Assembly: GCF_000972865.1 (NCBI RefSeq)
Contig: NZ_CP011144.1
Location: 3,283,118 to 3,347,117, forward strand
DNA length: 64,000 nucleotides
DNA from: Pseudoxanthomonas suwonensis
GTDB taxonomy: Bacteria > Pseudomonadota > Gammaproteobacteria > Xanthomonadales > Xanthomonadaceae
Direction of reading: 5' to 3'
Part shown: positions 28,005 to 32,910 of the stretch, one piece after another
Layout of the letters: the number at the start of each line of letters is the position of its first letter
Position numbering within the stretch: the first letter of the stretch is position 1
The notes under the pieces: generated by a model
The model's input: only the letters and a program-made list of their open reading frames with translations
The model's database searches: none
Told to the model about the DNA's origin: nothing
Program-made: the position numbers and the translations under genes

Positions 28005-28095
28005 GCCGGGCCCCCTCCGGGCCGCAATGCGTGGTGCCTGCGGGCATGATGCCACGCCGCCGCCGCGCGCCCGTGCCTTGGCCGGCCGGCTGGGC

Positions 28096-28101
28096 TAGAA
28101 T
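28096..28101 (+). promoter_or_regulatory. Probable -10 box of the thrS leader transcript
   Basis: TAGAAT is a good -10 hexamer, but no -35 is found at 17 bp (a TTGGCC lies 12 bp away, too close). Initiation near 28108 would give a leader of about 250 nt carrying the Thr-codon peptide and terminator. Support is moderate. Confidence 0.4.
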
Positions 28102-28179
28102 CCCCGCATCGCCGCCGGCATGGTGCCGGCGAGCCCGAACCGCAGGATGGCCCGCGGCAGCGCCGGCCGAGCGTGCGAC

Positions 28180-28206
28180 ATGAGCACTACCACCGCCCAC
28201 CGCTGA
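28180..28206 (+). CDS. Threonine-rich leader peptide of thrS (MSTTTAHR)
   Basis: ATG AGC ACT ACC ACC GCC CAC CGC TGA encodes MSTTTAHR, with three Thr codons in a row. Its stop lies one base before a sequence able to form an alternative stem, and 30 nt before an intrinsic terminator. This is the order found in thrL and pheM attenuators. The ribosome site is weak (CGAG). Translation of the peptide is inferred. Confidence 0.6.
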
Positions 28207-28235
28207 ACGCCGCCGAGGCTCCACGATTCCAGCTG

Positions 28236-28259
28236 GCGCCCTCGAGGCGCTTTCTTTTT
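28236..28259 (+). terminator. Attenuator terminator in the thrS leader
   Basis: Stem GCGCC (28236-28240) pairs with GGCGC (28246-28250), loop CTCGA, then TTTCTTTTT. A competing stem pairs 28208-28211 with 28246-28249 and 28214-28218 with 28240-28244, and cannot coexist with the terminator. Further hairpins at 28258-28275 and 28280-28297 precede the thrS start. Confidence 0.65.
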
Positions 28260-28354
28260 GCCCGTCCGTGGGCAAGAGCCCGGCCATCCATGGCCGGACT
28301 TTTCAATGCAACAGCGCAGGCTTCGGCCGGGCGCGACAGAGACCTCCGGTTCCC

Positions 28355-30259
28355 ATGATCACGATCACCCTCCCCGACGGCAGTCGCCGCGAATTCGACG
28401 CCCCCGTTTCGGTCCTGCAGGTCGCCCAGTCGATCGGCGCGGGCTTGGCCAAGGCCACCGTTGCCGGCCAGGTCGATGGCCGCCTGGTCGATGCCAGCGA
28501 CGTCATCGACCACGACGCGACCCTGCGCATCATCACGCCCAAGGACGAGGAGGGCGTGGAGATCATCCGCCACTCCTGCGCGCACCTGGTCGGCCACGCG
28601 GTCAAGCAGCTGTACCCGGACGCGAAGATGGTGATCGGCCCGGTGATCGCGGAAGGGTTCTACTACGACATCCACAGCGAGCGCCCGTTCACGCCCGAGG
28701 ACCTGGCCGCGATCGAGGCGCGCATGCGCGAACTGATCGCCCAGGATTACGACGTGGTCAAGAAGATGACCCCGCGTGCCGAGGTGGTGGAGGTGTTCAA
28801 GGCCCGCGGCGAGGACTACAAGCTGCGCCTGGTCGAGGACATGGCCGACGACGTCACCGCGATGGGCCTGTACTACCACCAGGAATACGTGGACATGTGC
28901 CGCGGCCCGCACGTGCCCAACACCCGCTTCCTCAAGGCGTTCAAGCTGACCCGGATCTCCGGCGCCTACTGGCGTGGCGACGCCAAGAACGAGCAGCTGC
29001 AGCGCATCTACGGCACCGCCTGGGCCGACGAGAAGCAGCTCAAGGCCTACATCCAGCGGATCGAGGAGGCCGAGAAGCGCGACCACCGCCGCATCGGCAA
29101 GCAGCAGAACCTGTTCCACCTGCAGGAAGAAGCCCCGGGCCTGGTGTTCTGGCACCCCAAGGGCTGGTCGGTGTGGCAGGTGGTGGAGCAGTACATGCGC
29201 CGCGTGTACCGCCAGACCGGCTACGGCGAAGTGCGCTGCCCGCAGATCCTGGACGTGTCGCTGTGGCAGAAGTCCGGCCACTGGGACAACTACAAGGACA
29301 ACATGTTCTTCACCGAGTCGGAGAAGCGCACCTACGCGGTCAAGCCGATGAACTGCCCGGGCCACGTCCAGGTGTTCAACCAGGGCCTGCACAGCTACCG
29401 CGACCTGCCGATCCGCTACGGCGAGTTCGGCGCCTGCCACCGCAACGAGCCCTCCGGCGCGCTGCACGGCATCCTGCGCGTGCGCGGCTTCACCCAGGAC
29501 GACGGCCACATCTTCTGCACCGAGGACCAGGTCGAGGCCGAGGTCCGCGCCTTCCACGAGCAGGCGCTGAAGGTCTACGCCGACTTCGGCTTCGAAGACA
29601 TCCAGATCAAGATCGCCCTGCGCCCGGACTCGCGCCTGGGCGACGACGCCACCTGGGACAAGGCCGAGGACGCGCTGCGCTCGGCGCTGCGCGCCTCCGG
29701 GGTGGAGTGGCAGGAACTGCCGGGGGAGGGCGCCTTCTACGGCCCCAAGATCGAGTACCACCTCAAGGACGCCATTGGCCGGACCTGGCAGCTGGGCACC
29801 ATGCAGGTCGATTTCATGATGCCCGGCCGGCTGGGCGCCGAGTACGTGGACGAGAACAGCCAGCGCCGGCACCCGGTCATGCTGCACCGGGCCATCGTCG
29901 GGTCGATGGAGCGGTTCATCGGCATCCTGATCGAGCACCACGCCGGGTCCTTCCCGGCCTGGCTGTCCCCGGTCCAGGCGGTGGTCCTGAACATCACCGA
30001 CGCCCAGGCTGAATACGTGGCCGAGGTCCAGAAAACCCTTGCAAATCAAGGATTCCGGGTCGAGGCGGATTTGCGCAACGAGAAGATCGGCTTTAAGATC
30101 CGCGAGCACACGCTGCAGCGGGTGCCGTACCTGCTGGTGGTCGGGGACCGCGAGAAGGACAACGGCGCCGTGGCGGTGCGCACGCGTTCCGGGGAAGATT
30201 TGGGCACAATGGCGGTGTCCGCGTTCGCCGAAACGCTGCGTTCGCAAGAATTGGCGTAA
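28355..30259 (+). CDS. thrS: Threonyl-tRNA synthetase
   Basis: The 634-residue enzyme charges tRNA-Thr. The start [15 protein letters not shown] at 28355 opens the TGS domain. An editing domain with [10 protein letters not shown] (the H-x3-H zinc-like motif) follows, then a class II core with NCPGHVQVF and the anticodon-binding domain from about residue 535. Length matches E. coli ThrS (642). It begins the thrS-infC-rpmI-rplT-pheST-ihfA cluster. The leader suggests attenuation by threonine supply. Confidence 0.98.
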
Positions 30260-30319: not shown

Positions 30320-30841
30320 ATCAGCACCCCCGAAAAGCAAAACCGAAAGAACCAGGAGATCCGGGTCCCGCGCGTGCGCGTGATCGGGTCCGATGGCGAG
30401 ATGATCGGCGTCCTGTCGCGCGACGAAGCGCTGCGCATGGCAGAGGACGAAGGTCTCGATCTGGTCGAAATCCAGCCCAATGCCGATCCGCCGGTCTGCA
30501 AGATCATGGACTTCGGCAAGTTCCGCTTCGAGCAGCAGAAGAAGGCGAACGAGGCCAAGAAGAAGACCAAGCAGGTCGAGATCAAGGAGCTGAAGTTCCG
30601 CCCGGTGACCGACGAGGGCGACTACCAGATCAAGCTGCGCAACATGCGCCGCTTCCTGGAGGAGGGCGACAAGGTCAAGGTCAACATCCGCTTCCGTGGC
30701 CGCGAGATGAGCCACCAGGAGCTGGGCCGGCAGATGGCCGCGCGGATCGAGGCCGACTTGGGCGAGGACATCGTCATCGAGTCGCGCCCGCGCCTGGAAG
30801 GCCGGCAGATGGTGATGATGATCGCCCCCAAGAAGAAATGA
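30320..30841 (+). CDS. infC: Translation initiation factor IF-3, ATC start
   Basis: Reading from ATC at 30320 gives 173 residues starting (M)[19 protein letters not shown], the normal IF-3 N-terminus. The first ATG-type alternative at 30374 would delete it. CGGAGA lies 7 nt upstream of the ATC. Non-standard AUU/AUC starts are how infC controls itself, since IF-3 rejects them. The N-domain ([12 protein letters not shown]) and C-domain ([11 protein letters not shown], ending IAPKKK) are both intact. IF-3 splits ribosomes and proofreads initiation. Confidence 0.95.

Positions 30842-31430: not shown

Positions 31431-32910
<1,480 letters not shown>

Follow-up and report, generated by a model that had tools for sequence, protein, structure and literature searches.

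How does Pseudoxanthomonas suwonensis match its threonyl-tRNA synthetase (ThrRS) to the supply of threonine? The 64,000-nt stretch of its genome analysed here (the window) contains thrS, and an initial annotation had placed a threonine attenuator in front of that gene, a claim supported by the conservation of Thr codons, by the co-variation of an antiterminator arm with the terminator and by RNA folding. We consider the element upstream of thrS to be a ribosome-mediated (leader-peptide) transcription attenuator that senses threonine, with a probability of roughly 0.86 as judged from sequence comparison, and a shortage of threonine would thereby very probably raise the amount of ThrRS that the cell produces.

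A short Thr-codon reading frame upstream of thrS

The leader and the genes that follow it are arranged as below.

28096..28101, + strand: -10-like TAGAAT of a probable leader promoter (-10 scores 5/6; -35 region 3/6, weak)
28180..28206, + strand: leader ORF MSTTTAHR, 8 codons, ATG at 28180, TGA at 28204-28206
28355..30259, + strand: thrS, threonine--tRNA ligase (NCBIfam TIGR00418, 721 bits), the putatively controlled gene
30374..30841, + strand: infC (IF-3), the next gene downstream, probably co-transcribed with thrS

Of 126 family sequences, 75 (60%) have promoter-like pairs scoring at least 8/12 upstream of the start module described below, compared with 3% of shuffles, and a stricter promoter scan of the window region found none. 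The eight-codon frame with three Thr codons in a row that had been described is indeed present, with codons 3-5 (28186-28194) reading ACT ACC ACC, and its start lies 175 nt from thrS.

Conservation was assessed in 130 thrS upstream regions of the family, namely the window, loci of 29 other genomes and 100 listed places hand-picked across genera. thrS was found in 194 of 198 family genomes, and the sample was drawn from the matches listed, among which the lowest-scoring places are absent, and strongly diverged thrS genes are accordingly under-represented. The short ORF, whose presence in relatives had been proposed as a check, occurs in 128 of the 130 regions, 127 of which have the start motif and one of which (L194) has a shorter site (ATGGGGACTACGACG..); the element is absent from the remaining two (L163 and L193). 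Among the 127 ORFs tabulated, 112 have 8 codons, 11 have 7 and 4 have 6. Thr is encoded at codon 3 in 126 of them, at codon 4 in 116 and at codon 5 in 59, with at least two consecutive Thr codons in 116, a single Thr in 10 and none in one (L139, MSPPIAHR). Codon 3 is ACT in 125 of the 127; Thr at codon 4 varies in its third base (ACC 111, ACG 4, ACT 1), and another family of the order also uses ACG, ACA and ACT. As a correction for sampling, 14 further loci or genomes were examined, eight of them genomes without a strong match to the start module. Four loci (L342, L344, L345 and L350) carry the usual motif and L352 a site without the hairpin and with one Thr codon (MRTIRFPR), whilst in G014 and G007 the matches lacked a thrS start and G024 gave no match. 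In L349, L351 and L352 (G036) there are TGA codons inside the thrS frame, yet the leader ORF and terminator are present.

Terminator, antiterminator and the position of the ribosome

Two mutually exclusive structures are predicted 3′ of the ORF.

28208..28218, + strand: antiterminator 5′ arm, beginning 2 nt past the stop codon
28235..28259, + strand: intrinsic terminator, stem 28235-28251 plus T-rich tail; 28240-28249 doubles as antiterminator 3′ arm

The terminator stem, annotated previously as 28236-28250, comprises 6 pairs and is followed by TTCTTTTT; between 27900 and 28500 there are two terminator-like sites against 0.2 expected in shuffles. The pairing of 28208-28218 with 28240-28249 that had been suggested to exclude the terminator is found in the minimum free energy fold of 28107-28262, as 28208-28211 with 28246-28249 and 28214-28218 with 28240-28244, and the total folding energy of this segment is no better than that of shuffles (z 0.27). 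Across the family, a terminator-like hairpin lies 3′ of the ORF in 112 of 127 leaders, the window included, compared with 24 of 127 when each region was shuffled once. The other 15 leaders, five of them from one genus (L108, L112, L113, L115 and L148), keep the ORF with no recognisable terminator, as would be expected if control, at least in those lineages, worked through Rho, decay or translation and not intrinsic termination, but given the terminator and co-varying antiterminator in the 112 we regard such control as very improbable.

Co-variation was measured in a swap test with 100 distinct arm-terminator pairs, taken from 110 leaders with a stem within 45 nt of the stop codon. Native arm-terminator duplexes had an energy of -12.47 kcal/mol compared with -11.14 when arms and terminators were swapped between genomes and -10.02 for shuffled arms; none of 5000 permutations was as low, and the Wilcoxon values of 9e-5 and 2e-7 serve as a guide and not as probabilities, since related sequences are not independent. 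The co-change of both stems in relatives, another check that had been proposed, is thus seen in these pairs. The first paired base of the arm lies 3-11 nt past the stop codon in 98 of the 100 leaders and 14 nt past it in two, too far for it to be covered by a ribosome.

In many members the letters of AGGUGGCCCGCGG resemble the T-box core, raising the idea of a degenerate T-box. A T-box requires its UGG to be unpaired and fixed, whereas the UGG here falls within a co-varying stem and changes together with its partner. Moreover, no Rfam family matched the leader at the gathering threshold and, when E was relaxed to 1, 28050-28400 gave a single match, on the other strand (E 0.62), so that a T-box is barely credible. 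The Rfam covariance model Thr_leader (RF00506) likewise gave no match in the window leader.

In order to follow the effect of ribosome position, the RNA behind the ribosome was folded thermodynamically with 9 nt protected and either codon 4 or the stop codon in the A site. For 105 distinct leaders the mean terminator probability was 0.30 (median 0.07) with the ribosome at codon 4 and 0.87 (median 0.94) with it at the stop, the probability rising by more than 0.2 in 77 leaders and falling in one; the corresponding values in a spacer-shuffled control were 0.69 and 0.78. In the window the change was from 0.005 to 0.958. The outcome at the stop codon depends on the footprint: with 6 nt protected the family means were 0.31 and 0.65 and the window reached only 0.19 at the stop, whilst with 12 nt they were 0.27 and 0.90 and the window gave 0.98. 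The earlier idea that ribosome position chooses between the two hairpins therefore holds in silico, in thermodynamic folding, for the window's family. Further loci (L234-L286) provided 32 ORFs with a terminator out of 35 (28 from family f12, one from f3 and three from the window's family), and the equilibrium switch in these 32 leaders was weaker (0.64 vs 0.91). It was hardly present in 40 leaders from Burkholderiales (0.88 vs 0.95), so that only kinetics could work there. Occupancy of the terminator 5′ arm before the 3′ arm is made did not differ (0.65 vs 0.66) and is an uninformative measure. With no ribosome loaded, the terminator probability was 0.48 as a family mean and 0.07 in the window, whose free leader is thus predicted to favour the antiterminator and hence read-through, whereas in trp-type leaders a free leader terminates.

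The ORF, its Thr codons, the structures with their conservation and co-variation, and the linkage to thrS are all read from the sequences compared here; translation, stalling, termination and the response to threonine are what we infer, as follows. RNA polymerase would make a leader of about 150 nt, its start placed from the -10-like site, and a ribosome would load on the structured start site (AGGAU, hairpin, 11-nt linker, AUG) and translate MSTTTAHR. With ample Thr-tRNA the ribosome would reach the stop codon and cover the nucleotides that follow, leaving the arm at 28208-28218 unable to pair, upon which the terminator at 28235-28251 would form and transcription end before thrS. When charged Thr-tRNA is scarce the ribosome would stall at codons 3-5, the arm would stay free and sequester the terminator's 5′ half, and transcription would run on into thrS and probably also into infC. 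An anti-antiterminator (1:2) hairpin did not stand out in a mutual-information scan of 105 distinct sequences from the start module to 20 nt past the stop codon.

The structured start module

The region directly 5′ of the ATG (28144-28179), which the initial annotation did not include, holds a hairpin and a near-invariant linker.

28144..28148, + strand: Shine-Dalgarno-like AGGAU (the window form, AGGAT, was seen once in 126)
28149..28168, + strand: start-module hairpin of 4 bp, a C.C mismatch (28153/28164), 3 bp and a 4-nt loop
28169..28179, + strand: 11-nt linker GAGCGTGCGAC, directly 5′ of the ATG, its GTG and GAC invariant (127 of 127)

On the sequences compared, the AGGUG-like site, the adjoining co-varying hairpin, the linker and the AUG appear as the most conserved part of the element (consensus AGGUG-hairpin-GAGYGUGYGAC-AUG). 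Each of the seven hairpin pairs is formed in 117-125 of 126 sequences, and the C.C mismatch is present in 96 of 126. Across 44 distinct, equally long sequences, pairing held in 97.4% of 308 cells, dropping to 14-43% in slid controls, and 20 cells had changed on both sides compared with 2.9 in shuffles. The same mutual-information scan revealed no extra helix, its top pairing-compatible pairs lying mostly in the hairpin.

The RNA around the start codon is conserved beyond what a leader peptide requires, a point against the attenuator reading. One explanation, a sub-reading of the attenuator, is that the hairpin is a mere spacer which brings a distant Shine-Dalgarno sequence to the AUG and senses nothing. 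GGTG (or GGATG or GGAGC) lies 31-42 nt 5′ of the ATG in 126 of 127 regions, the exception being L181; the site at the hairpin foot is AGGTG in 101 and GGGTG in 20 of 126 (121 together), and the linker after the hairpin aligns at 11 nt. The three members in which the hairpin is absent (L181, L194 and L352) have GAGGTG close to the start and keep at least one Thr codon, L071 has AGGTGGC, and in a third leader design (seven loci, see below) a purine-rich site is likewise predicted to be separated from the AUG by a hairpin. Such a spacer would leave unexplained the invariant GTG and GAC of the linker (127 of 127) and the fixed ACT at codon 3, and we give this explanation somewhat less than an even chance.

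Alternatively, the start module might be a binding site for ThrRS, in a feedback like that on E. coli thrS; once bound, ThrRS would block leader translation, with the terminator as output. Both the C.C mismatch and the linker are conserved beyond the apparent needs of initiation, the linker contains NGUG, with N variable, which resembles the Thr anticodons NGU, and there is at most one strong copy of the module per genome. However, the apical loop varies from 1 to 12 nt, being 4 nt long in 72 of 126 sequences, and contains NGU in one of the 126, the Thr codons persist in the three members in which the hairpin is absent, and the ORF of the window starts too far from thrS (175 nt) for direct block of thrS translation. 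ThrRS binding at this site is therefore improbable in our judgement. A wider proposal, which we think rather unlikely, is that the module, as an RNA element specific to the order and linked to thrS, does more than load a ribosome: it would be recognised by ThrRS, or by the ribosome through the invariant linker and fixed ACU, with the leader reading both Thr-tRNA charging and a second signal. Blocked initiation would then raise thrS expression and not lower it, since read-through is the predicted state of the window's free leader.

Several other candidate features were tried and rejected. The variable loop, with NGU in that single sequence, and the position of the hairpin upstream of the leader ORF do not fit an anticodon hairpin of the E. 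coli type. An upstream in-frame GTG start was dismissed because the GGTG-to-ATG distance varies (of 126 sequences, 71 have 34 nt, 24 have 36, 20 have 35 and the rest other lengths), which does not preserve the frame. A hairpin over the start codon, GUGC-GACAUGA-GCAC, is broken by eye where codon 2 is AGG, GAG or ACA, and a pairing of GYGUG with CANYGC near the ORF's 3′ end, plausible by eye in many members of the family, fails in the second family. A tRNA-Val(GAC)-like sequence lies shortly 5′ of the thrS leader in L008, L019, L021, L041, L042, L071, L338-L341 and L343. This sequence and the leader have GAGCACTACC and GACATG in common, a likeness that is probably due to chance, as GAGCACTACC is not kept in the second family, in which codon 2 is often GCA or CGG.

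The distribution of the module was determined with a covariance model (R1), a strong match having E of at most 2e-5. Strong matches were present in 50 of 60 family genomes, one in each. A search of the order gave matches at 0.01 in 72 of 200 genomes; 32 strong matches lay outside the window's family (31 in f12, one in f3), and all 30 of those read (two of f12 not among them) are upstream of thrS, so that module and Thr-codon ORF are conserved in two other families of the order. Of the weaker matches, those fetched had E values of 4e-4 to 0.0064; L278 and L279 proved to be upstream of thrS, whilst for ten the 0.9 kb taken contained no thrS. In the class, matches at 1e-4 occurred in three of 185 genomes, all from the window's family; the other 182 (20 of them listed) gave no module match in that search, whose stricter filters lose weak matches.

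Other thrS leaders and known systems

Fifty-five of 80 thrS loci examined lacked the strict motif, and in nine of these 55 a short, Thr-rich ORF precedes a terminator, compared with none or one in each of ten shuffles. Eight of the nine are MTPRTT leaders from Burkholderiales; the ninth, L041 (Dokdonella), was found through a longer in-frame ORF and shares a ATGACGCGAACC start with L019. The Burkholderiales leader has a start site GAGAAAGGCAnnn(n)GGTTATGACACCGCGAAC (GAGAAAGGCAnnn(n)GGTT), an ORF beginning MTPRT and a terminator GCGCGG..CCGCGC-T, and occurs at L022-L026, L028, L032, L046, L080, L298 and L307-L336. In the family of G587, which we take to be Burkholderiaceae as named records carry the same leader, 61 of 120 genomes contain the exact pattern of its site. 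Forty loci picked by that site place the leader 66-144 nt upstream of thrS with 3-6 Thr in 11-27 codons; MTPRT is preset by the choice of loci, and MTPRTT is found in 32 of the 40. Like the window's leader, this one combines a Thr-coding ORF with a terminator and thrS; unlike it, its ORF is longer and its start site is another, no common sequence being noticed except ACTAC. By eye, several members could form a ACCGCGAAC/GTTCGCGC pairing.

The third leader type, MTRTG, MTRNG or MTRTF, was found in some Lysobacterales (L338-L341, L343, L019 and L041; two of these seven loci have the same leader). Its members have a near-identical CGTAGTTCGAACGAACACGATCACCATGACGCG and a predicted hairpin between the purine-rich site and the ATG. 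The five loci from one genus (L338-L341 and L343) encode MTRTG or MTRNG with a terminator seen by eye, and MTRNG members carry one Thr codon only. Two further designs on the same gene, each combining a terminator with early Thr codons, speak for the attenuator reading.

E. coli thrL, trpL, and pheM before pheST are leader-peptide attenuators, and the element described here resembles them in its short ORF with matching codons, its terminator and its competing antiterminator, with pheST also a synthetase target. It differs in its length of 6-8 codons, its near-invariant structured start module and its target thrS, and in that no conserved anti-antiterminator was noticed. In E. coli thrS is controlled by a translational operator, ThrRS binding anticodon-like hairpins at the thrS start; the target gene and the RNA level of control are the same, whereas here about 95-175 nt separate thrS from the ORF and terminator upstream of it. 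Firmicutes thrS leaders of the T-box class bind tRNA directly with no ORF translated; there too Thr-tRNA charging is sensed and a terminator acted on, and they differ in the T-box itself, to which the window's leader gave no match.

In Streptomyces lividans, a Thr leader peptide (MKRVRPFLETTPGFVPAR) was proposed upstream of thrS (PMC8079986), so that the initial annotation, which knew of no leader-peptide attenuator for this gene, had been preceded there. The S. lividans thrL shares with ours a Thr-containing leader peptide before thrS and differs in having 18 codons, two Thr, a leaderless transcript and no clear terminator, as described for one strain (PMC8079986). Other sources, as far as their text was accessible, name E. 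coli threonyl-tRNA synthetase as an autoregulator, with thrS not in the main text (a terminator survey, PMC2965389), and treat leaders of glnS and aspS among others (PMC2659441), trpS and leuS attenuators (PMC1262725), the Rfam Thr leader among others (PMC3766115) and processing of the Bacillus subtilis thrS leader (PMC3997798). No thrS leader peptide from Lysobacterales or Burkholderiales was seen in the portions of the literature covered, most subscription papers being outside its scope. The novelty lies chiefly in the structured start module, and also in the lineage and in how short the leader is.

These leaders would strengthen the case for control of tRNA synthetases by leader peptides, and they suggest that related bacteria use different designs on the same gene, thrS. 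For the Lysobacterales, which include crop pathogens and hospital opportunists, they point to a threonine sensor that can be tested directly and that acts on an essential gene, with the gene for IF3 next to it. The co-varying hairpin, which separates a Shine-Dalgarno-like site from a start codon and is kept in several families of a single order, would also make the role of structured start sites testable.

Farther downstream in the window, at 31842-31880 between presumed rplT and pheS, lies a terminator-like GGGGAAGG...CCTTCCCC that runs into a T-rich segment, with no obvious Phe-rich leader. A second hairpin is found between the leader terminator and thrS.

about 28280..28299, + strand: palindromic hairpin CCGGCCATCCATGGCCGG-ACTTTTC / CGGCCATCCATGGCCGGAC, a dispersed repeat

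The palindrome has seven matches at six places in the genome with up to 2 mismatches, and none for the reversed-pattern control; this hairpin (28280-28297) is probably not part of the switch. Hairpins resembling the repeat at 28281-28299 also precede thrS in other genera.
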